Translations under genes and position numbers: made by a program
The notes under the pieces: model-generated
The model's input: only the letters and a program-made list of their open reading frames with translations
The model's database searches: none
What the model was told of the DNA's origin: nothing
Origin: Tetramitus jugosus
Taxonomy: Eukaryota > Heterolobosea > Eutetramitea > Acrasida > Vahlkampfiidae
Assembly: GCA_937625935.1 (NCBI GenBank)
Contig: OW569359.1
Coordinates: 62,001-126,000, forward strand
Length of the DNA stretch: 64,000 bases
Direction of reading: 5' to 3'
Shown: positions 29,022 through 53,328 of the stretch, piece by piece
How the letters are laid out: each line of letters opens with the position of its first letter
Numbering within the stretch: the stretch's first letter is position 1

Positions 29022-29391
29022 TGTTGTTGTTTTTGTCCGTTACACAATTTTGATTGGCTAATTATGCATCATACGCTTCAACAGTTTGCTGCTGCGATTC
29101 AACATGGTTGTGCTCGTGGTACTATCTATGATGCTACTAGGACTACGAAGAAGAATTGACCCCTCCGGTATCAAGAGATTGATGATCGTTAGTAATTCCA
29201 AGTGCAACGTAAATAGTTCAGGATTGAATGAATTGGTTTCATACAATGATAATGAAAGGAATTGGAACAACTACAGGTTACTTCAGATTGGCAAAACAGA
29301 GCTGCAATTGGAAGCAGGAAGAATTCCAAAAGTCTACAACGGTGCTGAAGACGAGTTGCCGAGATTACTTTTAAGCTTTAAATCATACGTA

Positions 29392-30745
29392 TTTTTTTTT
29401 CCATACAACCATGCGCAAGCACACGATTGCTCATTTATTGACTTCAGCTGAAGCAGATTGTTGTGACTTCAGCTGAAGCACACGATTGCTCATTTATTGA
29501 CTTGTTTTGTGAGTGACTACCCGTAGGGCGTCATTCACTCTTCTTCTCGTGTTGTCCCCGACGGTGGACCACAGGTTGGAAGAATCACTCTGGTGAGTGG
29601 TTTGGTTGATGCCCTTCATCAAAGGGTGTAACCTTGTAGTAGGACCGTCAATGGACACAGAGCCATCTGTTGTTGGTTTCTTGTTTTGGGCCTTGTTGCT
29701 CATCAGATCACCCAGTGTGATCCTAGCACTCCTCTTCTTGTTGTCATTGAGTTGTGGACTTTGAATCTCCTTTTCGGAGTCGTCCACATCCACAATGACT
29801 GGTTCGTCCTCAGTCAAACCATACCTTTTGCGTGCAGCAGCCAGCTCCATTGCAGCAATTTCCTTTTTCACCCTGGCGAACACTGGAGAAGTGGCATTCA
29901 CTTGCTCCAGAATTCACCGGTTCTCCGTACTGAGCTGCACAACAGGCACTGATGGCAGTGGTGTTGCTACAGTCCTCTGTTCTAGTGGCTCCCATAGCTC
30001 AGTAGCAGTGCTTTGGGCAACTTCTTGTTCCGGTATTGGAACCGGTTTGTTGCCCACTTGACCCTTTGTCTTTCCCAATTCCTTGGTGAGTTCTGTGACC
30101 TGTCGACGCAGTCCGTCAACCACCGTCAGCAGCTCCTCGTACATCTTTGTCAACCTCTTGTTGACAGCATTGAGAGGATCATGTGGTCTCTTGACGTATC
30201 GAGTGACCGTGGCTTTTACCTTGTTCTTTCCACTGAGCACTGCTCGTGCATAGGTTTCATCACCCATGACCACGAATGCAGTGTCACGCTTCTTGAGCAC
30301 ACTGGCAACCTTCTCAGGCCCCAGTAGCTTCTTGATGTTGTCCACTGACATGTTCTTCATGTCATGAACGACCACCTTTCTTGTGCAATCGACACTGCGC
30401 TTGGGTGCAGCAGTGCTGTTGCCAGTCCTCCTCTCTTTGTTGAAGAACTCAACACACTCATAGATGCGGTCATCCTTGACCGTCCCCCATGCAACAAAGC
30501 GTTGCTGGCCTTTCCTCTTGATGACTTGGACTCGGTTGAGCCAGTCACCAAACTCCTCTCCTATCTTTCTTGCCAAAGATGACTGAGAGACACCACCATT
30601 ACCGTTGCCAGTAATGGCGACCTCTCTGTCACTTGGCGCAGAGCCTTTCCGTGCCGTGGTCACATAACGGTTATTGCCGTATTCCTTTAAGGCCACCAAT
30701 TTTGTTGAATCACCAAATATGTGATGCCGTTTTTTTGTGTTTTTG
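29392..30745 (-). mobile_element. Non-LTR retroelement copy A (ORF1-like), 5' truncated
   Basis: A minus-strand insertion. Its 3' end is marked by a T-run at about 29391-29400 (a poly(A) tail on the minus strand). It is flanked by AATCATACGTA at 29381-29391 and AATGATACGTA at 30746-30756, a 10/11 candidate target-site duplication. The 3' region carries a tandem duplication of about 59 nt including CACGATTGCTCATTTATTG. It is very close to the copy at 52283-53169 but longer at the 5' end. It ends about 30 bp before tRNA-Val, in the opposite orientation. Only an ORF1-like protein is encoded, with no reverse transcriptase. Confidence 0.8.
29494..30699 (-). pseudogene. ORF1-like RNA-binding protein of retroelement A, one stop
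   Basis: One reading frame of about 400 codons, open upstream to the element boundary without an ATG and broken once by TGA at 29914-29916 where copy B has CAA. Residues KVVVHDMKNMSVDNIKKLLG and TAFVVMGDETYARAVL resemble the beta-alpha-beta pattern of an RRM. A coiled coil follows (RLTKMYEELLTVVDGLRRQV), then a basic, Ser-rich tail. This layout fits ORF1 proteins of L1-type elements, which coat the RNA. No zinc knuckle is seen. Confidence 0.7.
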
Positions 30746-30785
30746 AATGATACGTAAATTAATGGTCCAGATCCGTAAAATATCA

Positions 30786-30859
30786 GCGGTTGTAGATCAG
30801 TTGGTTAGATCGTGAGCTTAACACGCTCAAGGTCGCCGGTTCGATCCCGGTCAATCGTA
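30786..30859 (+). tRNA. tRNA-Val (AAC)
   Basis: A 74-nt cloverleaf: acceptor GCGGTTG with CAATCGT (G-T closings at two positions), D stem GATC/GATC, anticodon stem TGAGC/GCTCA with loop TTAACAC giving anticodon AAC, and T arm GCCGG-TTCGATC-CCGGT. B-box GGTTCGATCCC is canonical. A Pol III terminator of six Ts follows at about 30864-30869. No intron. Confidence 0.95.
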
Positions 30860-30918
30860 CATGTTTTTTCATTTTAAGGAAAGTCTCTTAGTTTAATTAC
30901 TGTTTATTCAATGGCTTC

Positions 30919-31464
30919 TTAATACGTTGCGAACCACCACAAAAACTTCACTCGAACAACTGTCCAGAAAGCAGCCATTGACAACTGAGTGTGAAATATG
31001 AAGGGAGAAGCGAATATTCCTTGGTTCACCAAAGTGAGAATGATGATGACCACATCACCAAAAAGTGCAGCTCGTTGAAACATTACCATGAGTCCCAGAT
31101 GTTTTTGTTTGAGCACCTCGTAGTAGAAGAATCCAACATAGGATAGAGTGACTCCAGCCAGCATTGACAGGGTGTACTGATCATTTGCATTGATTTCTTT
31201 GCCAAATGAAGTCATGTGGAAATGGTTTCCGAAGAAGAGCCAATAGAGAACAGTAAATCCAACAATTGGCAATTCAGGCTTGAATATTTTGAGCCAGAAG
31301 GAAGGAACTCGTCCTTTGAGAGTGGATGGAGATTCAACCTTACTCTTCTTTTTCACACTATCGCAGAGGGACACACCCAACAGTATCATAGCAAAGAAGT
31401 TTAGGACAATAGAGACGGGGCTGTTTGAGAAATTGTGGAAGTCTTTAGAAATTACAGGATTCAT
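30919..31464 (-). CDS. Four-TM membrane protein, 181-residue family, copy 2
   Basis: A 181-residue paralogue of the gene at 24010-24555, with the same loop (GRVPSFWLKIFKPELPIV) and the same central three membrane segments. The N-terminal 40 residues and last 12 (VRVKFLWWFATY) differ. It starts 300 bp from the divergent ARL8-like gene and ends 60 bp past tRNA-Val. Function unknown. Confidence 0.7.
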   Translation of the reverse strand: MNPVISKDFHNFSNSPVSIVLNFFAMILLGVSLCDSVKKKSKVESPSTLKGRVPSFWLKIFKPELPIVGFTVLYWLFFGNHFHMTSFGKEINANDQYTLSMLAGVTLSYVGFFYYEVLKQKHLGLMVMFQRAALFGDVVIIILTLVNQGIFASPFIFHTQLSMAAFWTVVRVKFLWWFATY

Positions 31465-31758
31465 TATTGATAATTATTTATGTTAGAGTGTGTAGGACTG
31501 GTTTTGTGTCGTTTAGTTTGTTTTATGGAGCTACAGGTTGGCATGTTGATAAATGCTTTTATAGCCTTCCAGATTTCGGGAGGTCCCTCATTCTGAACTT
31601 TGTTTTGCAGGAGGTAAGTTGAACAACCACTTCCAGAGAACAGTTGACTTCTGACATCTTCTCGACACCCGACGGAAAAAACAGGAAAACAGGAACCGAA
31701 AAATCTCCGTTCACGAACACAAAAACACAAACAAAAAACGGAGAGAACGCAGCAGAAA

Positions 31759-32481
31759 ATGGGTGCTTGGCTATCGAAATTAACAGAATTATTTTCCTCC
31801 AAAAAATTGGAATTGTGTCTAGTCGGTCTAGAAAATGCCGGAAAAACAACATTGCTCAATGTTTTGGCCACTGGTCAATCCGTTGAGACTATTCCTACTG
31901 TTGGTCTCAATGTCAAAATGATATCAAAGGGTGGTGTAAAGATGAAGGGTATGTTGTTTTTTTACATGTATATTCACGAAGGTTGTGAATCTGTCTGATA
32001 TCACGACAAGAACAACAGTGATAGTCATGTGAAAGCTATCTTGTTTTTTTGTTTGCTTGTTGTTGTTGTTCAGTCATGTTTTTGACACTGTGATCTCACT
32101 GAATTGTTTTTTTTGGTTGTCGTAGTTTGGGATTTGGCGGGACAAGCACGGTTTAGGCGCGAATGGGTTCGGTATACAGCAAACAGTGATGTCGTGTTGT
32201 TCGTGGTGGATGCCTCTGATGCGAACACGAATCGGATTGCAATGGCGAAAAAAGAGTTGCATCAATTGTTGGAAGATGAAAATTTGAGTCAGACACCATT
32301 GCTCGTGATTTTGAACAAGGTTGACTTGGGCGCAAAATTCTCCAATAATGAAATTATTGGACTATTGAATTTGGATTATATTGATACGAGGAGGAATCCA
32401 TGGGCAATTGCTTCCATTTCTGCACTGAAGCAAACGAACATTAGTGATGTTGTCGATTGGTTGTTGAGTCATTCGAAGTAA
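31759..32481 (+). CDS. ARL8: ARL8-like small GTPase (two exons)
   Basis: Exons 31759-31948 and 32126-32481 (177-nt intron), 181 residues. ARF-family motifs: GLENAGKTT (P-loop), ETIPTVGLNVKMI (switch I), VWDLAGQARFRREW (switch II, spliced at V), NKVDL and ASISALKQ. GVKMKVWDLAGQ and IASISALKQTNISDVVDWLLSHSK resemble ARL8, the lysosome and organelle-positioning ARF. The start MGAWLSK has Gly2 and Ser6, fitting N-myristoylation, whereas typical animal ARL8 lacks Gly2. The exact ARL subfamily is inferred. Confidence 0.8.
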
Positions 32482-32831
32482 CAAAGCAATCACAATTCTC
32501 GTTGTGTGAATGAAATCGAATGTGATTGTTTCATGTCTGCAATGCTATGAGGCAGCCAATACCTTTGCTGCGTATTTGAGTGGCTCTACATTGAATAATA
32601 ATTATTAGTTTGTGAAGAATATAGTGCAGCACACGGCCGTGTCACCCGTGAAGGAGCTCCTGCTGTAATTGTTCATAGCTTGTACAAGATATAAACACAA
32701 AATTTGTTGATGTGATATGAACAACGCAATCTATGTGATTTCTATGTTTGTTCGAGTGGATGAGTATTTACATTAGTGGTGACGAAGTCGAGTTACTTGT
32801 GTGTTCGAGACAAATCTCATGACTAATATGA
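32482..32831. other. Intergenic between convergent genes
   Basis: About 350 bases between the convergent ARL8-like gene and the basic protein at 32832. No gene seen; AT-rich with a short palindromic CACGGCCGTG at about 32632-32641. Confidence 0.3.
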
Positions 32832-33857
32832 TTATTGACTCGTTTTACTCTTTGGAGAGCGAGATGAGCTTTGAGACTTTAGAAATGGTTTAGAGGACTG
32901 AGGTTCAACAAGGTTAGAAACATGTTCCACTGCAAGTCTATAGTTGACAAAGTGCCGATAGGGTGTAAACTTCTTTTGAACTCTCTCAGGTGTCATCTTG
33001 TCGTAATTGTTTCTCATTATATTTCGCTTCCTCCGCAAGTAATCAATAGTAGGGTGCATATCAACCGGAAAGTTGTCCGGGTTGAGCAAGTTTTCATAAA
33101 TTTGATGCTCATAGCCGTACATTTGAGTTCGATCAAACTCCTTAAGAGATTGAACCATCGTGTCATTGATTTGTTTTTGAGAAAGTGGTCTCATTGAATT
33201 TTTTAGTACTCTTCCCCCAGTTTTGGGTCGAGGCTGTTGCTCCTCATTCAGGGTTGGTAACATCTTTGGCTTACTCGGTTGACTTCGTTGGGATGTTACC
33301 TTCGTCAGTGAGAGTTCTTTGGCGTTGGAGAATTGGTTTCGGACAGAATACTTTTGGAGTTCCTTCTTTTTGGATAAGATGAAAGGATCTGTTGCAGACT
33401 CGTGCATGCTCGCATTAACCACATCTTTATCTATCAAGGATCTCGTTACATGTTGAAGCTCTCTTCGGTGGCTGTATGAAGTGTTCACACATCGTGGGCT
33501 GTTGTACCTCCCACCAACAAAGAAACCATACTTATCTGACACTGAGGCGAGTCGATTGGCCTTTTCCATCGATCTACCAAGATCGAGCACATGCACTCCA
33601 TTCGGCGTCCGATTCGGCAACCGTTCCCAAGTGTAATCCTTCTTTGAAAGATGTTTTGGTTTGTGTGATTTATGATTCTTAGTGTTCTGTTGCTGCTTTT
33701 GGTCGTTTTTGCGAGTCTTTGCATCCATGGTGTAGTTGTTAAATATTGGCAAGGAGGATGGGTGAGTGAAGTGCTCATTATCTCCCCGTGCCAAATCTAA
33801 GCTCAAGGTCAGCTTGTTGGGAGAGTGCAACAGAGGTTTCACAGCTGGAGAAGACAT
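32832..33857 (-). CDS. Basic, largely disordered protein, unknown
   Basis: A 341-residue intronless frame, rich in Lys, Ser, Asn and Gln. Two better ordered stretches are YTWERLPNRTPNGVHVLDLGRSMEKANRL (about 75-103) and FTPYRHFVNYRLAVEHVSNLVEP (about 303-325). No signal peptide or membrane segment. I recognise no family. The basic Ser-rich C-terminus could bind nucleic acid or microtubules; this is speculation. Confidence 0.6.
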   Translation of the reverse strand: MSSPAVKPLLHSPNKLTLSLDLARGDNEHFTHPSSLPIFNNYTMDAKTRKNDQKQQQNTKNHKSHKPKHLSKKDYTWERLPNRTPNGVHVLDLGRSMEKANRLASVSDKYGFFVGGRYNSPRCVNTSYSHRRELQHVTRSLIDKDVVNASMHESATDPFILSKKKELQKYSVRNQFSNAKELSLTKVTSQRSQPSKPKMLPTLNEEQQPRPKTGGRVLKNSMRPLSQKQINDTMVQSLKEFDRTQMYGYEHQIYENLLNPDNFPVDMHPTIDYLRRKRNIMRNNYDKMTPERVQKKFTPYRHFVNYRLAVEHVSNLVEPQSSKPFLKSQSSSRSPKSKTSQ

Positions 33858-34204
33858 AGATTGTCGTATCTAATTGCTGAGACACAAAGAGCAATAATTC
33901 CGAAGGTGCGGAATTTTGTAATAATCTGCGGCTAAAAAACACGCGCCAAAATCTACGCGCCAAAAAAGTAAACCATCAACAAAAGAACAAGGCAACCACC
34001 AGAGCGTAACATAATCTTTGGTTCAACGTTTGTGTCTGCTAGCACGTCTCAACTCAGCACTGCTCTCTTTTTCTATTTGCTGATTGTAAGAAGACAACAG
34101 ATCAGCTGCTCTCCACCACCATATATCAAGTCCTAACCTTACGACTCACAACACCCACGAACAGTAATATATAAGCATAATTGCAACATCAAACCATTCA
34201 AACC
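33858..34204. promoter_or_regulatory. Divergent promoter upstream of the RB gene
   Basis: About 350 bases between the basic protein and the RB gene. It contains two close GCGCCAAAA words, CGCGCCAAAA at 33943-33951 and again near 33957-33965, which resemble the E2F/DP site (TTTSSCGC, here read on the minus strand). An E2F-like site upstream of a pocket-protein gene would be meaningful. This is inference from word matching only. Confidence 0.4.
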
Positions 34205-37180
34205 ATGAATCCAGACTCAACCAAACCCACAACCTCCACTAGCACAAGTGATGCACTAGACAGAGCACATTACACCATCCGTGATAAAGAGATGGTGTCT
34301 GGCTATTGTCAGAAGCTTGATGTCTCACAGAACATTGAGAGATTAGCTCATTATCTGTTCGAAAAGGTCAAAACGAAAAATAATGTATGTGTGGCATCGT
34401 CCCTTCATTCATCCATATGGAAATATTGTTCATTACTCACAATCCTATTCACTTGTTTTTCTCCCGTTGTGTCGTTTGTTGATTTTGATAGAATGAGAGA
34501 GAAGCTCTGAGAGAAAATCAATACTATGCTCTGTGTTCCATATTTATCGCCAGTCGTATCAACTACAAGCCAAATGCACAAAAACAAGACGAATATACTG
34601 ACATTATGCACAATATTGAAAAATTTGACTTGAGTATCAATGGACTGTCAATTGATCAAATACGGAGGATTGACACCTCGTTAGAGTAAGTCTATATTTC
34701 TGGTTTTTTGATTAACATTTCACACTTGTTGTTGTGTTTGTTTTTTGTTGGAAGAGATGATTGAAATTGTTAATCGCTTTTTGTTGTGGTCAAACAGGTT
34801 GGTTGAATTTTTAGAGATGCTAAACTCCATGATTGCATTGTTCAAGTTGGAAGACTCTGAACTATTTACACAATTGAAGATTGTACAGAAAAAGCTGATT
34901 ATTTTGGATTGTGTCTACAAGGAGTTTAGTGACTACTTTAAAGACCATTATGTCACGGGAGACAACTATCCATTTCAGACTCTAAAATCATCTTGCTGGA
35001 TGTTATTCTTGCTGTTAGGATATGAACCTGAAGTTAAATCCACTGATTTTGAGTCCATGTATCAGTTGTTGCAAGCCCTATTGTTGTTTTTGTGGGAACA
35101 CGTGCCACAAAATTTGAAAATTGTATCTGCTGATTCCGGTATGTTATTCATGCTCTGTTTATCTCTTCGTTTTTCCCGTTGGCCATTTCTCACACTCTAA
35201 ATTGACCAACTATTAGCTTCAATATTTAAGCTGTTTGGTATCAAGTCCGAATCGGTCAATTCCTCGCTCATCGATGTTCCTAAAAGATTAGTAACACAGT
35301 TGATGGAGAGCGAAGCCTTATCTGGTGAAACAATCGGCGATAATTTCCTAAAGCTTCCAGAATTGGAAGAAACATTTGCAAGAAAATATTTAACACTTTC
35401 TAATCCAATTGACTTTGATGGCCGGTTGTTCGACACAATCAATTCAATCAACACTCCTATTGGATCATCTAAAATGTTATTATCTGCACCAGTGTACCAG
35501 CTCAATCCACAGAAGATTAGAGATTTCATTGAACAAAATCCTGAGCTACGGTCACCATTACGATCACCTCGATCGACTTTCTATCAACCAAAATCAGTTA
35601 TGCACGCTACTTTGCACTCTATTCAACTGCTTTCAGTGAAAGTGGGTGCACAAAATGACGGTCCAGATGCAGAGTTGCAGCACTTTTTTAAATCGTGTGA
35701 TACTGACCAAACCGAAGCGATCACAAACAGGCTACAAAAGTTGATTGATATTATAGCACCTGCTCTACAACTGAATGAAGAGAAACAAAACATAAGAGCA
35801 AGCATGATCAAAAAGATATATTATCAAGTGTTAAAAGATATGCTCATCGGGGAGCAAAATAGACTACAGAAGAGTAATTTTACTGCCCTACTCTCAAATG
35901 AGGATTTCCACAAGTCACACGTTGTCTGTTCTGTTGAAGCCGTACTGTTTGCATACAACATGAAGGACACACTGGAATTTGAAGATATTTTGCGACTTAT
36001 TCAATTGGAACCGTTTGGCTTATCGGTAGTGATAGAGAGCTTTGTCAATCATGCAAGTTGGCTCAATAGCACATTCAGACGCCATTTCCGCTCCATCGAA
36101 GAAAAGTTGTTGGACAGCTTGGTTTGGGCCAGTGACTCATTCTATGAGAAGATAAAACAACACACCGAGAAAGAAGAAGTCCCACTTCCACACCCAGGCA
36201 CAGTAACACCAATGGCCAAGAAGAAACAAAGAGTGTTTAATGTGTATGATCAAGCCAACCAGCAGGAACAAAATCAACAAAAGAACTCTATTGCCGTCCA
36301 GTTATTCTTTAGGAAGGTGTATCAACTAGTGTCGCAACGAATAACTGATCTATGCAAGGAATTTAACCAAAAGGGTGAGCCAGTTGATGTCATATCATCT
36401 GATATCATGAAACAAATTTGGCACATTGTGTGGTACGTTTTGAACTCTCGTCACTCACTGATGCGCAACAGACACATAGATCATATGATCATGTGTGCAA
36501 TGTATGCTGTGTGCAACAAAGTGAACAAGATGAACTGGATATCATTCAAGGACACGATTCAAAACTATAGAACGATATGCGAAACCAATAGAAATATATC
36601 CCCTGTGGAAGCTGGGAAAATATTTGGACAAGTGCTACTCGATGGAACCAGGACAGGCGATATCGTTAAGTTTTATAACAACATCTTCATCCCTGAAGTG
36701 AAAGATTTCATTTTACAGTCATCGCCAAAGGCTGGAACCAATATTTACCTTCCTGATATGCCACAAGCAACTTCAGCCCTTCAATCTCCACAGCGTCAGC
36801 GAGTCTCCAAGTCTGCCAATGTATTTATATCACCCATGAGATCTCCAAGCAGCAAGCACAACCCTCTGCGATCACCTATGGCTCATTCGAATGCAAATGT
36901 TCTGAGCCTAACACCAAGAACCAAAGCTCTTTACTCGTTTAGGGAAGCTTGCACTGAGAAGTTGATTGGTCTTGATTCTGTCGATCGTTCTGTCAAGCGT
37001 GCTTTATCATTCACCGATCCTGAGAGTGAGAGTAGTTTGGAACCATCTAGCAAGTTCAGAAAACTGCGAGGACCGAGAAGGCAAATTGATTTTGGGCCAA
37101 TGAGCACAGATGAAGCAGATACAGCACCAGAGTCAACGACGACTCAATCCGATGATGAAACAAATGCTCAATCTGAATAG
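34205..37180 (+). CDS. Retinoblastoma-family pocket protein (four exons)
   Basis: Exons 34205-34384, 34492-34685, 34798-35138 and 35217-37180 join in frame to 892 residues. The first 240 residues match the RB N-terminal cyclin-like region. Pocket A spans about 360-545 (LEFEDILRLIQLEPFGLSVV) and pocket B about 595-700 (QLFFRKVYQLVSQRITDLC and HIDHMIMCAMYAVCNK). Many SP/TP sites, including RSPLRSPRSTF before pocket A and a cluster at about 755-810 (SPMRSPSSK, PLRSPM, TPRT), are typical CDK targets. Family role: represses E2F/DP at the G1/S transition. The ATG has no upstream in-frame rival. It ends 47 bp before the Fanzor element. Confidence 0.93.
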
Positions 37181-37226
37181 ATATTGAAGTATTTATTTCC
37201 ATATTCGAACCGTCATTGAATTGTCA

Positions 37227-37243
37227 TTAAGGTGGCGGTCTAC
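37227..37243 (+). repeat. Left terminal inverted repeat of Fanzor element
   Basis: TTAAGGTGGCGGTCTAC, the exact reverse complement of 39889-39905. The outer four bases TTAA (or the TA inside them) may be the duplicated target. Confidence 0.9.
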
Positions 37244-37887
37244 CAACTCCTCGTATAAATAGGGCTCCTCGTATAAAATGATTTTTGTTTGAGAAAAAAG
37301 AAGCAAGATGTGGGTCGATCAAAAAACATCAGAATCCATACACAAGTGTTGATCATCCACAATACTGTGAATTCTCGGTTACAAGCAACACTTTCGTGCT
37401 TTGTGATTTCTCTGCGGCGGAGGTTCGGGCTTCTTTATTTGGGCTAGTTGACAGGAACATTGAATCTCTCTGGAGAATACAAAAACACACTTGGATGATG
37501 AGTCATCCACACGTTGTCATTAAACAAGTTCTGAGTCAAAGATGCAATACTTGGTAGAGTTTCATATTGGAGTCTCCTCCAGTAGATGATTTCGGTTGTT
37601 GTGTGTATTGGTTCAGAGGATGGACGATGGACGTTTTCTTTCAAGACGCGAGATTGAACCACCACCCAAGAAGAAATAAAGCATTTGCCAAACGAGTAAC
37701 GTCATCTTTCTGTTGTCTAAATCTCAGTTTCCTCTAAGCTGCGGAATTGGTGCAGTTGTAAAAATTTCCGTTGAGACTGTCTTTACAACGGCAACGGCCA
37801 TCTACCTCGGTTTAAAAAGCGCTGTCTTTTTCGCTGTTTGATTCAACCCACACAACAAATACACCACACAACAAATACAATAACATT
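37244..37887 (+). promoter_or_regulatory. 5' non-coding part of Fanzor element
   Basis: About 640 bases with no supported gene. TATAAAT at 37254-37260, TATAAAA at 37272-37278, and a GGTTTAAAAAGCGC stretch near 37809-37822 are candidate core-promoter words. The last 40 bases repeat CACACAACAAATACA twice just before the start codon. Confidence 0.4.
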
Positions 37888-42831: not shown

Positions 42832-43128
42832 TGGATCTCTTCAGAAAGGAAAACAACATGGATGGTAAGGAAGGGTAGTTTGAGCTTAATTTTTCACAGG
42901 TGTGTACCCTGTAGAGAGGGAATTTGAATGGTGTGGAGAGGTCTAGGAAAGGTCTAATGTCTCTCATCAACATGCAATCAGATTTCTCCCAATAAGCGCA
43001 AATGGAATCATAACATAAAACTCTTGACTACATACAACCAGAGTTCACTCTGATATTTGTTCCGTATTTACAAGTATGTTCTTGACAAACAGGTAGTATC
43101 ATCTGCCTCTATCGATCTTCATCATCGT

Positions 43129-44257: not shown

Positions 44258-45815
44258 ATGAATCGATTAGCAAAAGCTTTGACACATAATCGCGACAGGC
44301 GATACAAACACCTGTTGGATGTGATGCCCATTTATGTTATCCCCATTTTTCTATTGCTATTTGCAATTGTTGTGGCTGGTGGTGTTGTAATTGCTGTTCT
44401 TGTTGGTCCACCTGTCTATGCCAAGGTGCACACTGAAATTATGAATCCCAAGGTTGTTGGGCCTTTTTTGGTAAGTGATCCATGTGCTCAGACAGTTTGT
44501 TTTGTCGATTTTCGCGCTTTTTTTTCTGGCACCAATTGCTGTTTGCTTACGATTTTGTCTTTTTTTAAAAAAATGATCAACAAATGTACAATAGCTTGGG
44601 CATCGAAACATTAGCTATTCACCAGAAGTTGGCTTCAATAACTTGAATCAAGAGATTACAGTGACTCTCACACTGAGAAATGCCATGTACTCTAGTATCG
44701 TTGGTGATGACAGCATGGGTCTCACAAAGAGTGATTTGCTCGTGACTGCACGACTCGAAGGCAAAGAACCCAAGAGCTCCAATTTCTCCTCCATTCACAA
44801 AATCTCCTCTCAATCAAAGGTCATGAGATGTCCACAGAGACAAGCATACTGTGATCCTATTGTTGTTGTGTATTTGACCTATGTGCCTTATAGTCAATTC
44901 AGAGTTCACATCTCATTGGACAATATGGGTGACTTGTATGAGAATGGAATGATGATGGACTATGCAAAGATTGAGTTTGGTTATGTGACTGACAAATTTT
45001 CGAGATTTGAGGTCGGATGGAGATACACTCTGCTGTTTATCATGATTCCGTTTGCAGTGTTCTTTGTGTTGTACACGTTTGTGAGACAACCGCTGAAATG
45101 GTGGACAACGGAGCAAAAATGGACTGCCATCCTGTTGCTCATTATTATTCTGTACAATAATCCGATTGTTGGATTCCAGTATGTGGTGGACACGTGGGTC
45201 ATTGCGTTCTTGAACACAGTGTTCGTTGCGACATTTATTTGCTATTTATTGTTCACTGTGATTGTGACAACGCATGCTGCGATTAAGCCTGTGGGAGAAC
45301 GAGGCATTTTCTTTTATTTGCCAAAGTTGGTGCTCATTGGTACGATTTGGTTGTTTGTCATTGTTTCGATTACCTATATTCGAGTCAAGGAGAAGAGCGA
45401 TCCATCGTATTCACTCACTGTGGCCAACAGCTTCTCCGCTTATGAAGTCTTGGCCATTATTGTTGGTATTGGAATTGTGCTCTATATTTTGAACATTTTG
45501 TACTATTTGTTGAGAGGTATTGGCTACTTTACAAAGATTGGTGGCATTCCATTGCAATTCAGAAGTAGAATCATTGTTGTCTGGTTGTTGACATTGACTA
45601 TTGTTATCGGAACGATTGTTGATGTGTTCCTCTATGTATTTAGAGAGACATGGAACAATTCTGCTCAATTCCTGTCATACTTTGTCCTGTACAACATGTA
45701 TGCCTTCATTTTGGGCATCTTCTATCTGCCAAGTTTCACTGAGAAGAGAATGGGCCAGGACGAGGATGATCAAGCCTTCATAGCAGAAGACGAGGAACTC
45801 AATCAGATGGAGTAA
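44258..45815 (+). CDS. TMEM181/Wntless-like seven-TM protein (two exons)
   Basis: Exons 44258-44470 and 44595-45815 (124-nt intron), 477 residues. One membrane segment near residues 25-55, a luminal domain of about 160 residues with a Cys pair (MRCPQRQAYCDP), then seven hydrophobic segments from about 235 to 450. The layout (N-terminal TM, beta-rich luminal part, seven-TM bundle) matches the Wntless/TMEM181/GOST class. The tail (EDDQAFIAEDEELNQME) is acidic. Family role: secretory-pathway or cell-surface cargo or receptor function. Substrate unknown. Confidence 0.75.
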
Positions 45816-45877
45816 GCACTGAACCATCATATCATCACATAACATAAACAATATTGATATAGAGTTATAAATCAATT

Positions 45878-46942
45878 TTACTCTTCTTCTTCATTCTCCT
45901 GCCCTGGTTTTTTCAAATCCTTTCTAACAACTTTCGTTGGTCCCGTCTCGTATCCCAACAGAGCACAATCCCGCACATACAATCCAATAAACTTCATATA
46001 CCACGCGGTCAACTGTTGAAGGTGAATATGGAAATCATCCGAGTTTGTTTCAATTTCCGAGCTCTCAAAATTCTTCACAGTGTCCCGAAGTGCGTCCTGC
46101 ATGATGCGCTGTGCCATATTCGACAATTCAGTCACACTCTTGTCCAAGTGCTTGGAACTCGCAAAACACACCTCTGTAGCTGCCTTGCCCACACCTACGT
46201 TCATCTCTAGGTCAATCATTACTTTTTTCTGATCTTTCGTCTCCACACAATACTTGTTCAACTTCACAGGAACATCACTGTTGTTCAAGAAGCCGTAGCC
46301 TTCGAAAATGGGTTTCACAAAACGTACTTGACCTGGTTCTAGCATCTCATTAAAGATTCCATTGTCAAAATCATGACTTCTGTACTTGCGAAAAACAATG
46401 AGATAACTGTCATCGGGGCACTTGATCAACCTGCGACGGAAAACACCATAAAAGAACATGAGACTCAGTGCACCACCTAGTATGGCACTTGCAACAAACT
46501 TGTTCTTGTCCACAAATTGATCCTCAACGAGCATTTCACTGGAGCTACAATTGTCATACTCTGTCTTGTTTGATCTGAGCCATGAGGACAAGGTTTGCTT
46601 TTTTGTTGTTGTCACCGATGATGATGATGATGACTCTAGAGCTTGACCTTGTTCTTGTTGATTGCTTTGCTCATCAGCAATCGTCTCATTCAAGGTCCTC
46701 CCAGTCAAAAGCTTCTTCTTGTAGGCATAAAAAGCGCGCGAAGGAAACGCTTGAGATTCTTGTCGCATTTTGGCGGTAAGCGCCAGAGAAATTCCGCCAA
46801 ACACACTGCCCAATACTCCGATAAAGACATAGCGGCCTCTCTTGGTTCGACTTTTAATTTCTTCTTCGATGATTTTGGCTTTCTTTGCTAGTTGTTCTGG
46901 TGTTTCTCGTTTGGCTTGTTCAGCCATGCGTTCAAACAACAT
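45878..46942 (-). CDS. Membrane protein with SPFH/band-7-like domain, tentative
   Basis: A 354-residue protein, ATG at 46942 (an alternative MAEQ start lies 15 bases on). Two hydrophobic segments, about 38-58 and 150-172, enclose a Ser/Thr/Gln-rich loop. After the second, CPDDSYLIVFRKY, EPGQVRFVKPIFEGY and VETKDQKKVMIDLEMNVGVG follow the beta-strand rhythm of SPFH proteins, with a helix (RIMQDALRDTVKNFESSEI) as in prohibitin/stomatin. A Pro/Lys-rich end follows. The SPFH call rests on pattern only. Likely an integral membrane scaffold protein. Confidence 0.5.
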   Translation of the reverse strand: MLFERMAEQAKRETPEQLAKKAKIIEEEIKSRTKRGRYVFIGVLGSVFGGISLALTAKMRQESQAFPSRAFYAYKKKLLTGRTLNETIADEQSNQQEQGQALESSSSSSVTTTKKQTLSSWLRSNKTEYDNCSSSEMLVEDQFVDKNKFVASAILGGALSLMFFYGVFRRRLIKCPDDSYLIVFRKYRSHDFDNGIFNEMLEPGQVRFVKPIFEGYGFLNNSDVPVKLNKYCVETKDQKKVMIDLEMNVGVGKAATEVCFASSKHLDKSVTELSNMAQRIMQDALRDTVKNFESSEIETNSDDFHIHLQQLTAWYMKFIGLYVRDCALLGYETGPTKVVRKDLKKPGQENEEEE

Positions 46943-47299
46943 GTTTTTTTAAGCTTTGATATGAAAAATGTGAATATAAGGAGGTTTAGAAGGGAGTTGT
47001 TGAATGGTGGTAGTGGTGGTGGAGATGATGAATTGATGCGTAGCTTGCGCGTGGCTAAACAAATGAATCGTGTTTTTTGGTTGGCTTTCTCTTGTCGGTT
47101 TTCACAGAAGATTTCGGTATTATTTTCGCCATTTGTTTTTCCACAACTTGTGCGGACAAAATCAAACCTCTTTGTTATTCCGGAAAGGTTGTTTGGGGTT
47201 GTTTTGGGGTTCTTCACAATAGAAGACTCATTAATTCTGGAACTATTGATATGACTTGTTGTCCACCTCACTTTTTGGAAACAAGTGTTATACATTAGC
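46943..47299. other. Intergenic, no gene seen
   Basis: Short frames on both strands without domain features. Contains the promoter of the SPFH-like gene and then a transition to retroelement-derived sequence. Confidence 0.3.
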
Positions 47300-47309
47300 C
47301 TTGATCTCA

Positions 47310-47990
47310 ACATTATCTGTCAACATTAGGTGAAGTTGGACCCGCGCTCGGTGTGAGTGCCATTACCTTGCACCAAATCGATTTCACTGAGCATGCTCCA
47401 AAGAACTGATTCTGAAGTTGCCAGTTCACTATGCTTGATCCACTTCCCTTCTTAACCAGTTGCTCCCTCACACAAATTCCAATCTTGACCAGCCTCTTGG
47501 CGACGTCAATCTGTTGAGACAGAGAGATTGCAATTCAAATTGTTCTTTCTTAATACAACCATTACCGTTGCTCACTTTATTGTTTATCTTTCTTTCAAAT
47601 AGTTTCTCTTATTCTCACTGTGCCGCTCGAAGATGCCCTTCTCTTTCCTTTCAGTGCCGCTCGAAGATGCATCCACAACTTCGTCAAGAGCTTCACTCTC
47701 AATGCTCATCATTCCCATCAGGAACTCCCGGCTGGTTCTTCTCAACGGTATTCTGACCACCTTTCGGTCTTTCACTCTCACATTGTCGAACCATATGTTG
47801 ATACAACAAGTATCAGCAACACCATCTTGATCATTTCATCTGCAACCGTCATAGCAAGGCATCTCCTGGCATAAACAGCTCTAGGACACCGTATTAAACA
47901 GTGGAGCACACGTTAAAGCTCTTGATTGCACCACACGCATTTGGCAGGATTTCGTAGGTGATGTAAAGAGCTCTGACAATTTCGAAACAA
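47310..47990 (-). mobile_element. LINE reverse-transcriptase C-terminal remnant near tRNA-Leu
   Basis: Minus-strand reading recovers, with stops and shifts, the zinc-binding end of a LINE ORF2: CVWCNQEL, then VLHCLIRCPRA, then DRKVVRIPLRRTSREFLMGMMSIESEA. These align with SWCQSEP, SVLHCLIRCPRA and GKVVRQPIKKSSRELLQGMMGIETDA of the remnant at 51494-53205. Further 3', around 47330-47530, another coherent minus-strand stretch (QIDVAKRLVKIGICVREQLV) may belong to the same element. The 5' edge is roughly 40-90 bp upstream of tRNA-Leu and antiparallel to it. Confidence 0.7.
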
Positions 47991-48032
47991 AATTTGAACA
48001 TGCAAGATTTTGAATCGGAACCCTATCGAAAT

Positions 48033-48112
48033 GGCGAGGTGGTCGAGTGGTCTAAGACGCTGTGTTAAGGCCGCAGTCCTTCGGGGCGCGGGTTCAAATC
48101 CCGCCCTCGTCA
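48033..48112 (+). tRNA. tRNA-Leu (AAG)
   Basis: An 80-nt class II tRNA: acceptor GGCGAGG with CCTCGTC, anticodon stem CTGTG/CGCAG with loop TTAAGGC giving anticodon AAG, a long variable arm (CCTTCGG core), and T arm GCGGG-TTCAAAT-CCCGC. B-box GGTTCAAATCC is canonical. A TTTT terminator follows at about 48115-48118. No intron. Confidence 0.95.
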
Positions 48113-48165
48113 ACGTTTTGCTCCCAATCTGAGATTTTTTGCGCGCACAAAAAACACAAAACACA

Positions 48166-49185
48166 ATGAAAACAGACAACAACATGGATCATGATCCAAC
48201 AACAACAACCACAACAAGATCCAGACGATCGTCCTCCTCCTCCAAAAACACCACCAACAAAACATCATCCTCACCACCACACCAACAACAACAACGAACC
48301 AGAGACACTGTCATTGTAAAACCCATTCTCTACGGTAACATTGCTCATCATCTAGGTAAAAAAGCCGACCCCACAAAAACTCACAAGTGGACCTGTTATA
48401 TCCGCGGTCTCAATGCTCAAGAAGACTTGTCTTTTATTCGAAAAGTAGTGTTCACGTTGCATGAGAGTTTTGCCAATCCGGTGAGAGAAGTTTTGCAACC
48501 ACCGTGGGAAGTTTCGGAACAAGGATGGGGAGAATTCGATATTCGTATACAAATCTATTTTCAGGATCAGTCGGAGAAACCTGTTGTGGTGGATCATTTG
48601 TTGACATTGTTTCCAAAGATTCAAGTCAATGCTGCAAGTGCTGCTGCTGCTGCTGCGAGTAGTAGTAGTAGTAGTACGACAAATACAGGAGGTGCTACTT
48701 CTGCTGCTTCGAATGCAATTGATGGTGGTGCGAGCAGCATTGGTATTGGTTCAGCAAGCGCGAGTGCTACAGGAGGTCCAATCATGGCCAATTTGGCGCC
48801 AAAAAAGATTTTAGTGACGGAGCATTATGAAGAGTTGTTGTTTGTGAATCCGAAACCGCAATTCTATGAACAATTGATGGCATGTTACACGACGGCTCCT
48901 GCTATTGACACAACAACGGCGACTACAGCGACGACGACGAATAGTGCTACGACAGATGCGATTGCACAGGCGAATATGCAGGGAAGTGCGAAAAAGAAGA
49001 GAAAAAAGGGAACATTTGCACTGTCGAATCAGTCTCAAGTCGAAATTTATGCACCAAAGATGGACGAGAAGAAGGATGTGGATTTATTGACGAGAACGTG
49101 CAAGGCACTCGATTTGAAAATCAATGAATTGAATGCAGAATTGGCCAAAAAGATGGAACAGCAACAGAATGCACTTCGGTCATAG
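48166..49185 (+). CDS. YEATS domain protein (YAF9/GAS41-like)
   Basis: A 339-residue protein starting at the ATG at 48166, 53 bp after tRNA-Leu. After a Thr/Ser/Gln-rich disordered start, the YEATS domain spans about 45-150: VKPILYGNIAHHLG, THKWTCYIRGLN, VVFTLHESFANPVREV, PWEVSEQGWGEFDIRIQIYF. A low-complexity Ala/Ser/Thr linker follows, then a Lys-rich patch (KKKRKKGT), and a C-terminal helix (LDLKINELNAELAKKMEQQQ), as in YAF9/GAS41. Family role: reader of acyl-lysine on histone tails in NuA4/SWR1 complexes. Confidence 0.9.
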   Translation: MKTDNNMDHDPTTTTTTRSRRSSSSSKNTTNKTSSSPPHQQQQRTRDTVIVKPILYGNIAHHLGKKADPTKTHKWTCYIRGLNAQEDLSFIRKVVFTLHESFANPVREVLQPPWEVSEQGWGEFDIRIQIYFQDQSEKPVVVDHLLTLFPKIQVNAASAAAAAASSSSSSTTNTGGATSAASNAIDGGASSIGIGSASASATGGPIMANLAPKKILVTEHYEELLFVNPKPQFYEQLMACYTTAPAIDTTTATTATTTNSATTDAIAQANMQGSAKKKRKKGTFALSNQSQVEIYAPKMDEKKDVDLLTRTCKALDLKINELNAELAKKMEQQQNALRS

Positions 49186-49447
49186 ATTGTATGATAATTC
49201 TGCAGCATATGATTTTTGATTTGATATTACATGGATCACAATGTAAAGTTTCTGCTGTACAAAACAATATGCACATCGTGTATACGCCCGTGTTACACAT
49301 GTCATCTCTCAAATTTACATGGCAGTTGTTTATTCAAATATATTCTCACGCCTGTGTCGTCAGATTCACATACATGCTTCACTCACTAGCTTGATCTCTC
49401 GATGTTTTCAACCCATTCTATCGTTCATTCTTAAGAATGCGCATCTT

Positions 49448-50405
49448 TTACACAAAATACAAGTTGACAAACAAATGCAACAAGTTGACCCGAAACACGA
49501 AACATGAGCCAATCCACAGAATGAACCATATGGCAATCACAGGGTACAAGAACAAATAATTCACAATCTTTGATGGCACCACAAACGGAACATCAATCAA
49601 TCCTCTCAGCGTCACATACAAATAAGCAGTCAATCCCAGCGCGACACTCGTATTGCCCAACAATACTCCGATCCACCCATGACTCAACAACACATGAATC
49701 GGCAGCAAAAAATAATTGAGCACATAAATGATGAGAAACAGTGGGAAAAATGAGTTGCAATGCACATCGAAACAATACAGCCACTCCATGTTCATCGTAT
49801 TACCCTCTAATCGCTCCAACATTTGCTCCAAACTTGCATTACTACTACTACTATTGATACTATGACTACTACTACTACTAATACTACTATTACTACTACT
49901 ATTACTATTGATATTATTGGTATTGGACAAGTAATGATTGGAAAGGTACCACACACCTGTCGTCACAAACAATCCAATCAACAAAAAATCCACAATGTAC
50001 ATGTACGATATCAATTTTAGGTATTTTGTGAGAGACAGTGTGGAATGAAAGGACAATGAATAGCACAAGCTCACTACAAGAACCATCAAGCTCTCAATGA
50101 GGAAAAATGAAGGGTCATCTCTCGCATAATGGCCCTTGATGGCTAATTTGTGTGTACCAACAATGTGTGGAAGGAATTACAGTGTCAATTTTTGGCGCCA
50201 AAAAATAAAATGAGATAAAAGAAAAACAAGAAACAAACGTACCATTTCGAGCTTTGGCCAATCGAAAGACACGTGAAGGGCTGTAGCATAGCTCTAACAT
50301 CTGATTGAAGGCCAATCGGAAATCAAGTGACCTTGGTTTCCATATTCTTTGAAGATATTGCTTGAATGGTTCAATAGAGGTCTGATGATGTTGCGGTAGC
50401 ATCAT
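49448..50405 (-). CDS. UNC50: UNC-50 family membrane protein (two exons)
   Basis: Exon 1 is 50405-50243 and exon 2 is 50142-49448 (100-nt GT-AG intron), 285 residues. Family motifs: SLDFRLAFNQMLELCYSPSRVFR, then GHYARDDPSFF at the splice junction, MEWLYCFDVHCNSFFPLFLI and GWIGVLLGNTSVALGLTAYLYVTLRG. Five hydrophobic segments. A Ser/Asn-only insertion of about 40 residues lies between TM2 and the EWLYCFDVH motif. Family role: Golgi/endosomal protein needed for trafficking of some cell-surface receptors. Confidence 0.92.
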
Positions 50406-50617
50406 TCGTGTGAGATGGTGTTGTTATGGTTGGTGATGTTGAGCACGTGTTTGTTTTTCTCTCGTTTTCGCGATCAAAAAAAAGTTATTCGAAGGGAACG
50501 GAAAAAATGTAGCGAACAGAGAAAGCTCTGCATGAGTGAAGGTTCTCGAGCAGTCTCCTACTTTGTAGCAAATAGGAGCAAGACGCAAAGTGACAAATCA
50601 CAATATTTTCACTGTAT

Positions 50618-51334
50618 TTATGGCAATTCGTCGTATGCTTCCATTGCATCACTCATAAAAACACAGTTTCTTCCCCACTTCCATGGAAGAGCCAATACCA
50701 CTATCTTCAGTAGCTCTGGATCTGTTAGCTTGCATTCGTCCAACTCCAAACGAGATCGAATGAATTGCAATGCATTCCTCGAGTATGAAAGAACATCATC
50801 TTCAAAATTAAGGACCCTCTTGATATCTTTTTGTGCTTTACTTTGAACCGATATATTCCATTGAGTGCTACATCCTTGGTCATCATAGGACCAATGTGTG
50901 ATCACAAGGCCCTCAATCTCAACTGTTGCGTTATAATTGCAGTGATAATCTGCTCTACTCATCTTGATATAGCTGTAGCTCACCTTTTGAAACACCTTGT
51001 CCCATATGAGTTGTTTCACTGTTTGGTTCAATCTCTTCATATCAATGTCAATTCCTCTGCCCCTATCAGACTTGTTCATCCACTTGTTCCATTCCCCTCT
51101 CTTCTTTTCGAGTTCACTCTGTAAAAGTGATTTGACATAGGCGGTTGCATTGTCATGGACTACATCCCAGAATACAAGGAAGAAGAAGAACAAGTCGATG
51201 ATGAAGATGAGGAAACATATGACGGCACGGATTAACTCACTTGGAAAGGTTTGTAACTTGTGTTCTCCATTTGGAGTTTGTTGCAATGACGTTGGTGGAT
51301 CAGTCACCAACGAACTTGTTCTTTTTCTCTTCAT
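50618..51334 (-). CDS. Single-pass membrane protein, unknown
   Basis: A 238-residue protein with a basic start (MKRKRTSS), one strong hydrophobic segment at about 36-57 (AVICFLIFIIDLFFFFLVFW), then a soluble domain with probable N-glycosylation sites (NAT, NQT, NYNAT, NIS) and four cysteines. The topology suggests a type II protein with an extracytoplasmic domain. I recognise no family. Confidence 0.6.
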   Translation of the reverse strand: MKRKRTSSLVTDPPTSLQQTPNGEHKLQTFPSELIRAVICFLIFIIDLFFFFLVFWDVVHDNATAYVKSLLQSELEKKRGEWNKWMNKSDRGRGIDIDMKRLNQTVKQLIWDKVFQKVSYSYIKMSRADYHCNYNATVEIEGLVITHWSYDDQGCSTQWNISVQSKAQKDIKRVLNFEDDVLSYSRNALQFIRSRLELDECKLTDPELLKIVVLALPWKWGRNCVFMSDAMEAYDELP

Positions 51335-52266
51335 GAAGAGTTGGATTTGTTGGTATTTGGGTTCTCTGAATTTCTCGAACTCTCTTTTGCCGCGAGACGA
51401 TTACTCTCGAAAAACGAACTGCTTCCCACTTGAACATTTTAACTCTAATTAAATATGTAATAAACGCTAACTAGGAATTCAATCTGAGATGGTTCAAATG
51501 TTCATACTTCTGTTGTTTGGGAAAGAAAATGGGACTGCAACTCGGAATAGAGCGCGATCCCACAAGCCACTTTGTGACTTTGGACAGTGAAGGCTTTCAA
51601 AAATGTGCTTGGAACTGCTTGGATATAAAATCTGGGTCTTCCATGTGTCTTTATAAAGAGGAAAACCATGTTTCTTCCAACACAAGAAAGTATGGGTTCC
51701 CCTTCATGAGAACTTCAAATCGCAAGTCCTCATTGATGGCATCCGTTTCTATGCCCATCATTCCTTGCAGCAGTTCACGGCTAGACTTTTTGATTGGTTG
51801 CCTCACAACCTTTCCTTCTTTCAGTCGCACCTCATCAAACCAAACATCGGCGTAGGCAGAGTCCGGGATTCCCATATTCTTGAGCTCATGCCTCACTTTC
51901 ACAGCCAATTGCCTTCTAATCATAATGGCCCTTGGACACCTGATCAAACAATGTAGCACACTTTCGGGCTCACTCTGACACCAGCTGCACATGATCTGTT
52001 CCTCACCAGTGTTGTATAGATATCGTACAACTTCTGCTGTGTGGAGTGTTCCACTGCGTACCTGTGCATGAAACCATTCCAGCTTCCTGTCTATACCATG
52101 GGGGTATTTGAGGAAGCTAAAATCTGCACCACTGTTATTTGCTGCCCTCTGTAGCCAACATCGCTCGTCTTCATCAATTCTTGCACTTCTTTCTTGATCA
52201 AACAGCGACTGTAGATGCGATCTACTTTCCACATGCAGATTCCTTTGTACAAGTCCGTCCGAGCCG

Positions 52267-52282
52267 TAGAGAAGGCGGAGAT
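52267..52282 (+). repeat. Target-site duplication, left copy
   Basis: TAGAGAAGGCGGAGAT, identical to 53170-53185. The last T could belong to the T-run that follows. Confidence 0.9.
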
Positions 52283-52321
52283 TTTTTTTTTTTTTTTTTT
52301 TTTTTTGTTCCATACAACCAT

Positions 52322-52344
52322 GTGTGCTTGCGCAGCAAGCACAC
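52322..52344. repeat. Perfect hairpin at the retroelement 3' end
   Basis: GTGTGCTTGC and GCAAGCACAC form a 10-bp stem around the loop GCA, 16 bases inside the poly(A) side. Copy A has only half of it (GCGCAAGCACAC). It could be the RNA element recognised by the reverse transcriptase. Confidence 0.6.
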
Positions 52345-52430
52345 GATTGCTCATTTATTGACTTGTTTTGTGAGTGACGACCCGTAGGGCGTCATTCGCT
52401 CTTCTTCTCTTGTTGTCCCCGACGGTGCAT

Positions 52431-53153
52431 CTACAGGTTGGAATAATCACTCTGGTGAGTGTTTTGGTTGATGCCCTTCATCAAAGAGCGTAGCCTTGTA
52501 GTAGGACCGTCGATGGACACAGAGACATCTGTTGTTTTTTTCTTGTTTTGGGCCTTGTTGCTCATCAGATCACCCAGTGTGATCCTGGCACTCCTCTTCT
52601 TGTTGTCATTGAGTTGTGGACTCTGTATCTCCTTTTCGGAGTCATCATCCACATCCACAATGACTGGTTCGTCCTCAGTCAAACCATACCTTTTGCGTGC
52701 AGCAGCCAGCGCCAATGCAGCAATTTCCTTTTTCACTCTGGCGAACACTGGAGAAGTGGCATTCACTCGCTCCAGAATTTGCCGGTTCTCAGCACTGAGC
52801 TGTACAACAGGCACTGATGGCAGTGGTGTTGCTACAGTCCTCTGTTCTTCTGCCTCCACTAACTCAGGAGTGGTCTCCATCCTAGCAGTGGCTTGGGCAA
52901 CTACTTGTTCCGGCATTGGTACCGGTTTGTTGCCCCCTTGACCCTTTGTCTTTCCTAATTCCTTGGTGAGTTCTGTGACCTGTCGACGCAGTCCGTCAAC
53001 CACCGTCAGCAGCTCCTCGTACATCTTGGTCAACCTCTTGTTGACAGCCTTGAGAGGATCATGTGGTCTCTCGACGTATCGAGTGACCGTGGCCTTTACC
53101 TTGTTCTCTCCACTGAGCACTGCTCGTGCATAGGTTTCGTCACCCATGACCAC
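52431..53153 (-). pseudogene. ORF1-like protein of retroelement B, truncated
   Basis: Corresponds to residues from MGDETYARAVL of copy A onward, with the coiled-coil (RLTKMYEELLTVVDGLRRQV) and the basic Ser-rich tail. It ends at a TAG where copy A reads TGG and continues 30 more codons, while copy A has a TGA where this copy reads CAA. The two copies together show the frame was once longer; neither is complete. Confidence 0.7.
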
Positions 53154-53169
53154 GAAAGCAGTGTCACGC

Positions 53170-53185
53170 TAGAGAAGGCGGAGAT
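53170..53185 (+). repeat. Target-site duplication, right copy
   Basis: Identical 16-bp copy of 52267-52282. Confidence 0.9.
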
Positions 53186-53207
53186 AGCTCGAAATTCAAC
53201 AATGAAT

Positions 53208-53328
53208 GTCTACGTTCATACAATGGTGGAACCACCTCTTCCCATTTCGAATAGAGAAGTTAAGCACCATCTGGCTGAGTTAGTATTGAGATAGGAGACT
53301 ACTCGAGAACCCTCAGTAATGTAGGCTT
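53208..53328 (+). rRNA. 5S ribosomal RNA
   Basis: About 121 nt. Helix I pairs GTCTAC at 53208 with GTAGGC at 53322-53327. The body follows the eukaryotic 5S order: CATAC near the start, CCCATTTCGAATAGAGAAGT, TTAAGC, the box-C-like GATAGGAGACTAC, and a closing GTAATGTAGGC. A TTTT terminator follows at 53328-53331. Only one copy is in the window, so 5S is dispersed here rather than in a visible tandem array. Retroelement DNA lies immediately upstream. Confidence 0.93.

Follow-up and report, generated by a model that had tools for sequence, protein, structure and literature searches.

LINE insertions just upstream of tRNA and 5S rRNA genes in Tetramitus jugosus, probably guided by the RNA polymerase III initiation complex

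Why should every long interspersed nuclear element (LINE) in one stretch of a genome stand with its head toward a gene transcribed by RNA polymerase III (Pol III)? The question is raised by 64 kb of the heterolobosean Tetramitus jugosus (contig C16, positions 62001-126000, of a 26.35-Mb assembly; this whole stretch is the window below), in which each Pol III gene, for tRNA-Val, tRNA-Leu and 5S rRNA, is faced by the 5′ end of its LINE element (element A at tRNA-Val, element B at 5S; Table 1). An earlier note on this DNA had claimed that the three insertions run antiparallel to their genes, on the minus strand and upstream of plus-strand genes, and that the 64 kb hold no other LINE sequence. We called the Pol III genes with ARAGORN and with Rfam at its gathering threshold, and scanned for LINEs with tblastn (E up to 1e-3) and blastn, with LINE protein and DNA queries drawn from elsewhere in this genome. 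The programs agree on the arrangement described: ARAGORN and Rfam call these three Pol III genes and no other in the window; LINE protein similarity is found by tblastn at 29572-30714, 47269-47528, 47635-48017, 51696-52316 and 52434-53177, in every case on the minus strand; blastn recovers four of the five places, likewise minus; and at this tblastn sensitivity no further LINE appeared. Here, we report that the arrangement recurs across the genome. We consider it very probable that LINEs, together with at least two families that carry only the first open reading frame (ORF1), use target-primed reverse transcription to enter a nearly constant site a short way upstream of Pol III genes, steered there by the Pol III initiation complex.

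Copies bearing a reverse transcriptase (RT) were taken as the best 35 of the 73 matches to RVT_1 in the genome, ranks 1-20 with 10 kb each and ranks 21-35 with 1.5-3.2 kb of 5′ flank; L-numbers denote fetched stretches of this genome and C-numbers its contigs. Twenty-three of the 35 face an intact tRNA (22) or 5S gene (1) head-to-head, all of them antiparallel, and LINE protein similarity starts 42-70 bp from the gene in 22 of the 23 and 117 bp from it in L037. The remaining 12 comprise nine stacked behind a LINE of the same direction (L009, L012, L016, L020, L031, L038, L040 and L043 by protein match, L042 by eye from its 3′ end), two facing partial tRNA genes and one that is unexplained. Throughout the 20 ten-kb loci, with overlapping loci counted twice, 108 LINE segments (114 kb) run in the same direction against five (448 bp, one patch in L024) in the opposite direction. 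The ORF1-only family O1x was sampled through 190-208 bp at the 5′ end of 13 of its 35 full-length matches, namely the 15 best by rank minus three (one lying within L027 and two whose positions had already been matched), plus C20:342283, which was added because of its apparent status as a counter-example. Eleven of these face a tRNA gene and one a 5S gene, all antiparallel, at gaps of 5, 35, 39 (the 5S gene), 42, 42, 43, 43, 44, 44, 44, 44 and 46 bp; the last (L094) lies behind a LINE 3′ end, as judged by eye. Over both samples (48 copies), an intact tRNA or 5S gene stands head-to-head with 35 copies, every one antiparallel; of the remaining 13, stacking accounts for 10 and a partial tRNA gene for two, which leaves one unexplained. 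The chance that a random 5′ end lies antiparallel and at most 100 bp upstream of a Pol III gene is p = 0.0045, with 2365 candidate genes as an upper bound, and 35 of 48 then corresponds to a log10 P of about -71, a figure that includes L037 at 117 bp and takes the copies as independent, though they are not fully so. In these 48 copies, the enrichment in distance and orientation over random placement that the earlier note proposed to measure genome-wide is borne out.

A matching picture emerges from the side of the genes, for which we used the 20 nuclear tRNA genes at the head of a list of 53 in score order and 20 of 47 listed 5S genes, the latter with the upstream 280 bp only; these samples contain the window 5S gene (L079) and one tRNA gene from the element side (L047). 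A LINE lies within 350 bp upstream of 12 of the 20 tRNA genes and within 350 bp downstream of one (Fisher p = 0.0004), and within 280 bp upstream of 12 of the 20 5S genes; all 24 upstream matches are antiparallel. When 150 listed LINE matches were compared with 104 listed Pol III genes by position only, all 11 pairs within 150 bp proved to be both upstream and antiparallel, and at up to 500 bp there were 13 upstream antiparallel pairs and two downstream of 5S genes. Two LINEs downstream of 5S genes were considered as counter-examples and rejected: at C20:343428 a tRNA-Gln gene intervenes (L084), and at C20:69194 the LINE is, by its coordinates, the 3′ end of a copy facing tRNA-Glu (L032). The 5S rRNA genes are dispersed on many contigs, mostly singly, in at least 51 places. 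As to the tRNA genes, a tRNA-Cys gene (L093:81-167) has an apparent 13-base intron by ARAGORN, and L024:2242-2329, called Ala, matches that gene at 100% over 85 bases. Ten further tRNA listings on contigs C54 and C56 were excluded from the gene-side sample as probably mitochondrial; tRNAs stand at identical positions on the two contigs, which are probably duplicate copies of the mitochondrial genome.

The exact spot can be read from target-site duplications, which we sought at 21 Pol III genes as exact matches of at least 10 bp with the second copy directly behind a poly(A) run. They were found at 15 genes (13 of 18 tRNA, two of three 5S) and are 11-21 bp long. At tRNA genes their gene-side end lies 27-42 bp (median 31) and their outer end 42-61 bp (median 48) upstream, the two at 5S genes span 22-38 and 33-49 bp upstream, and the insertion stands 38-61 bp from the gene wherever a duplication was found. 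In the window, the duplication of element B is a perfect 16 bp; at tRNA-Val no exact duplication was found, and a 15-bp match at 13 of 15 positions, equalled in 1 of 2000 shuffles, begins 29 bp out. The search found no exact duplication at the second tRNA gene of L010 or at the 5S gene of L011, neither of which is adjoined by a LINE. The 15 nick sites have no common motif, and hence no fixed target sequence of the kind that R2/Tx1-type LINEs use. Since the distance is common and the sequence is not, the distance is seemingly set by something bound to the gene. Furthermore, the duplications at L018, L022 and L027 are triplicated or overlapping, so that a second element must have gone in at that same spot, on the gene side of the first. 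The history of the window 5S gene looks the same, element B sitting between an older truncated LINE and the flank of the gene; to judge from the layout, the 5′ end of the older LINE would abut the site that element B later used.

Several observations weigh against this reading or narrow its base. The flanks cover 35 of the 73 RT matches and 13 of the 35 full-length ORF1-only matches. The head of the stack was seen in three of the nine stacked RT copies only (L016/L019, L020/L014 and L031/L087), where a tRNA gene is present. The ORF1-only copy L092 (1-190; C24:421737-421926) begins at a distance of just 5 bp from tRNA-Thr, whereas the other 11 keep 35-46 bp. The exact-match search found no duplication at the window tRNA-Leu remnant or at the directly faced genes of L013 and L024, and beside a poly(A) tail the limits of a duplication are uncertain by a few A. 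Of the two partial genes, the tRNA-Trp match at L033:2689-2702 is weak, with 14 nt and E = 0.014; at L029:630-665 the 5′ end adjoins, by eye, a partial tRNA gene with an exact B box and the 3′ half. It is possible that at both loci the target gene was lost during or after insertion. Finally, L025:5426 (C3, at about 412,800) stands alone among the 35 RT copies in having no Pol III gene and no LINE ahead of its 5′ end; the adjoining DNA, read by eye, resembles host coding sequence. A permissive Rfam scan of the eight gene-less loci returned a single sub-threshold IMPDH match (26.5 bits against a gathering score of 95.4).

The ORF2-bearing elements encode an ORF1 protein of 345-439 aa and an ORF2 protein of about 1280 aa with an apurinic/apyrimidinic endonuclease (APE)-type domain, an RT and a C-terminal CCHC motif. 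Copy L010 keeps both frames intact (372 and 1274 aa), and 5′-truncated copies occur (e.g. L017, L019 and L022). The three ORF2 families are mutually 41-47% identical. Three ORF2s match RVT_1 far over the cut-off (E 7e-29 to 5e-26); Exo_endo_phos is over its curated cut-off of 24.5 bits in one (35.4 bits) and under it in two (22.1 and 12.8), and zf-RVT gives sub-cut-off matches in two. Invariant across the three are the endonuclease signatures QEA, GDHN and DH and the CCHC residues. With RT, endonuclease, poly(A), variable duplications and 5′ truncation, these are APE-type retrotransposons without long terminal repeats (non-LTR), that is, LINEs. Their relatives are distant and mostly unnamed, the best for ORF2 reaching 28% identity (scored over the 8000 candidates with most words in common; 120 of 298 matches listed), and the ORF1 protein search gave seven matches, none informatively named. 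Pfam searches with ORF1 found no family above cut-off, and an endonuclease-only search of solved structures found nothing under E 0.09. Among solved RT relatives the three best are named R2 proteins and 8c8j is sixth of six, a ranking by similarity that leaves the 'L1-like' of the earlier note a tentative label. A profile search of structures listed three R2 chains, two 'reverse transcriptase-like protein' chains and one exonuclease, and not 8c8j. We take 8c8j, listed as an RNA-directed DNA polymerase, to be human L1 ORF2p.

Elements A and B have ORF1 and lack ORF2, and are therefore not full LINEs. O1x accounts for 78 of 111 ORF1 matches (identity 79% or more), and among the 33 remaining ones, at 65% or less, is a further ORF1-only group, O1y, whose ORF1 in L012 is followed directly by the 3′ end and poly(A). 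O1y (L012:969-2012, L044, L059 and the matches near 50% identity) is about 50% identical to O1x, and many of its listed copies have intact frames and a similar 3′ end. The sampled ORF2-linked ORF1s are only 29-39% identical to O1x, which is therefore no recent deletion product of any sampled family. An arm pair, GCARY...GTTGT, stands shortly before the poly(A) in 17 of 17 3′ ends (12 ORF2-bearing and five O1x, some of them near-identical copies), and the minimum-energy fold pairs these arms in 15 of the 17, the exceptions being L010 and L022-O2b.

As far as sequence can tell, these elements bear the structural hallmarks of target-primed reverse transcription, and the following course may be proposed. 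An element protein would recognise the Pol III initiation complex as its address, with TFIIIB the likeliest contact; it is from the parallel with TRE5-A of Dictyostelium discoideum that we infer TFIIIB-guided insertion here. The first nick would fall on the gene-sense strand some 22-42 bp upstream of the gene and the second 11-21 bp further out. The duplication would then restore the promoter-proximal flank and leave the same gene targetable again; serial re-use of one spot, which the sequences do show, yields the stacks. The ORF1-only elements would be copied in trans by the ORF2 protein via the common 3′ end.

A variant of this explanation, which does not exclude it, holds that the address is carried by the ORF2 protein or RNA and not by ORF1; we regard it as a substantial possibility, if somewhat short of an even one. 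ORF1-only families must borrow ORF2, which might recognise the arm pair present in every 3′ end read, and a targeted ORF2 together with the common arm pair would therefore explain every copy. Against it, the ORF1 protein of TRE5-A interacts with TFIIIB subunits (PMC5911963). In the ORF1-only family, moreover, ORF1 is kept intact: 34 of the 35 full-length O1x matches have no internal stop, and dN/dS is 0.24, 0.24 and 0.48 in three O1x pairs (0.19 between O1x and O1y, with dS near saturation). Such selection would show that ORF1 matters, not that it aims; it is compatible with ORF1 as the address carrier and is no proof of it. We suggest tentatively, as an idea that is possible rather than probable, that the ORF1-only elements form a long-standing lineage that maintains itself, and that its one protein, under purifying selection, is an address tag bringing borrowed ORF2 to Pol III genes. 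Targeting and copying would then be separable modules, and such an arrangement would have two origins, one in Discoba and one in Dictyostelium.

It is improbable that the endonuclease instead recognises a DNA sequence upstream of these genes, as in R2-/Tx1-type site-specific LINEs. The 20 5S upstreams read (from L064-L083 and L086) do share a box of approximately AAAANGCGGAAATAG at -35 to -21, with little conserved beyond about -37, which suggests a candidate external Pol III promoter element; the duplication of element B overlaps this box and therefore restores it. Nevertheless, the 20 tRNA upstreams have no position beyond -11 that exceeds 0.6 bits, the nick sites are motif-free, and many tRNA types are targeted along with 5S at similar distances. 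We find it very hard to believe that insertion is random and that selection in a compact genome purged the copies elsewhere, sparing safe spots at Pol III genes: the window does look gene-dense (47 stop-to-stop open frames of at least 150 aa in 64 kb, by a mechanical list), but survival alone would not fix the outer end of the duplication at 38-61 bp at 15 sites, nor would it give one and the same orientation to all 35 copies that directly face a gene and to all 24 matches in the gene-side samples, or favour upstream over downstream 12 to 1 at 20 tRNA genes. Just as implausible is the tRNA or 5S gene as a travelling part of the element, whether as promoter or as a composite head like that of a short interspersed element (SINE): the gene usually adjoins the 5′ end, but the duplication lies between the two, so that the gene is outside the inserted unit, the same element family occurs with many different tRNA types and 5S, and the flank between gene and element varies by site. 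On the fixed distance, the orientation, the motif-free nicks and the position of the duplication, all three of these rivals were rejected.

The features of the window are collected in Table 1. The ORF1 of element A is 88% identical to that of L027 over residues 3-388, with one internal stop. A tandem duplication around CAATAAATGAGCAATCGTGTGCTT lies in the 3′ untranslated region of element A (window 29401-29500) and is absent from the four other O1x 3′ ends read.

Table 1. Pol III genes, LINE-derived elements and associated sites in the window (window coordinates)
Feature	Position	Strand	Evidence
tRNA-Val (AAC), target gene of element A	30786..30860	+	ARAGORN, Rfam
tRNA-Leu (AAG), target gene	48032..48114	+	ARAGORN, Rfam
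5S rRNA gene, target of element B and the older remnant	53208..53327	+	Rfam
Element A, ORF1-only LINE; poly(A) tail 29392-29400; 5′ end toward tRNA-Val	29392..30741	-	similarity, duplication
Element A ORF1 frame; start codon apparently lost, one stop	29572..30714	-	
Element A 3′-terminal hairpin (GCAAY...GTTGT arms), directly before poly(A); common to ORF2-bearing families	29404..29430	-	
Element A target-site duplication, 3′ copy	29377..29391	.	
Element A target-site duplication, 5′ copy; gene-side end 29 bp from tRNA-Val	30742..30756	.	
ORF2 remnant of LINE; 5′ end about 15-50 bp from tRNA-Leu	47269..48017	-	tblastn 47269-47528, 47635-48017; blastn 47667-47983
Older 5′-truncated LINE, ORF2 residues about 1050-1227	51696..52266	-	similarity
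Element B, 5′-truncated ORF1-only element with poly(A), between older remnant and 5S flank	52283..53169	-	
Element B target-site duplication, 3′ copy	52267..52282	.	
Element B target-site duplication, 5′ copy; gene-side end 22 bp from 5S; overlaps 5S upstream box	53170..53185	.	
Conserved 5S upstream box, -35 to -21	53173..53187	+	profile of 20 5S upstreams

Two further sets of RVT_1 matches were seen in the genome. Weak matches similar to one another (profile 106-164) lie near contig ends, at the starts of C3 and C17 and the ends of C9, C10 and C48, and are possibly another, subtelomeric retroelement. A second class (profile about 63-205, near 70 bits) occurs at C16:366236, C28:223019, C15:386571, C30:32495 and other places; since its match at L022:9213-9566 is unmatched by the LINE proteins, this class probably consists of other retroelements.

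Insertion upstream of Pol III genes is known from several systems. The yeast elements Ty3 and Ty1 and the dictyostelid DGLT-A also insert there, Ty3 via TFIIIB; they differ as LTR elements with an integrase and other distances, DGLT-A inserting in either orientation (PMC5911963, PMC5006619). Zebrafish Mutsu (at 5S) and Dewa (in a tRNA-Leu spacer) are, like the present elements, non-LTR elements at such genes, but PMC3706591 ascribes direct recognition of DNA sequence to target-specific non-LTR elements, whereas here the distance is common and the sequence is not. NLTR-B of Polysphondylium pallidum is a non-LTR element found 39-64 bp upstream of tRNA genes (PMC5911963); it has an RNase H domain (PMC5006619), for which Pfam gave no match in the three ORF2s scanned here.

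The closest likeness is to TRE5-A.1 and TRE5-A.2 of D. discoideum, as described in PMC5911963 and PMC5391098. TRE5, placed under L1 in a review table (PMC5911963), has the same 5′ end toward the tRNA 5′ end, the same tRNA and 5S targets at near-identical distances, and the same kind of ORF2 with an APE endonuclease, an RT and a zinc finger. At tRNA genes its insertions lie 44-54 bp upstream and point the opposite way; upstream of 5S the distance is 37-41 bp. In T. jugosus all 35 of the 48 copies that directly face an intact Pol III gene have this orientation; the outer end at tRNA genes (42-61 bp, median 48, 13 sites) overlaps the TRE5 range and is somewhat wider, ORF1-only copies stand at 35-46 bp from 10 of 11 tRNA genes and at 5 bp from one, and the 5S values are 38 and 49 bp (duplications) and 39 bp (ORF1-only gap). 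TRE5-A ORF1 interacts with TBP, Brf1 and Bdp1, and targeting is abolished by B-box mutations (PMC5911963, PMC5391098). TRE5-A.2 is likewise an ORF1-only companion, moved in trans there; the ORF1-only copies here, with intact ORF1 and a common 3′ end, are known from their sequence. They differ in make-up: TRE5-A.2 derives from TRE5-A.1 by lacking ORF2 (PMC5911963, PMC5391098), whereas the ORF1 of the ORF1-only family here is as far from the sampled ORF2-linked ORF1s as given above.

The host differs too, being heterolobosean and not dictyostelid, and the likeness drawn here is one of behaviour. A TMEM181-like protein of the window has, after a nameless 100% match and two proteins without an informative name (68% and 51%), its best named relative in Willaertia magna (41%), which belongs to Heterolobosea within Discoba, and its next named relatives in insects (27%). 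TRE targeting is called unique to dictyostelids in PMC5006619. The passages available of two Naegleria genome papers list percentages for each class of repeat (1.85% for LINEs in N. fowleri) and do not mention target sites, and a licence-limited literature search found no heterolobosean report of such targeting. The earlier note had held that an L1-like element at Pol III genes, 5S included, would be a new instance. That part does not stand, as Dictyostelium TRE5 does so and 5S targeting by such an element is no first; what is novel is the lineage of the host and how the ORF1-only partners are composed. The genome described here, with LINE insertions close upstream at 12 of the 20 genes sampled in each class, tRNA and 5S, offers a second system for asking which element protein reads the Pol III complex, and its stacks order insertions in time at single genes. 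Given a heterolobosean host and TRE5-like behaviour, TRE5-like targeting thus exists far from dictyostelids, and nearly the same spot, the same orientation, 5S insertions and ORF1-only companions imply that the two lineages either converged to a precision of a few base pairs or inherited the habit from a much older source.

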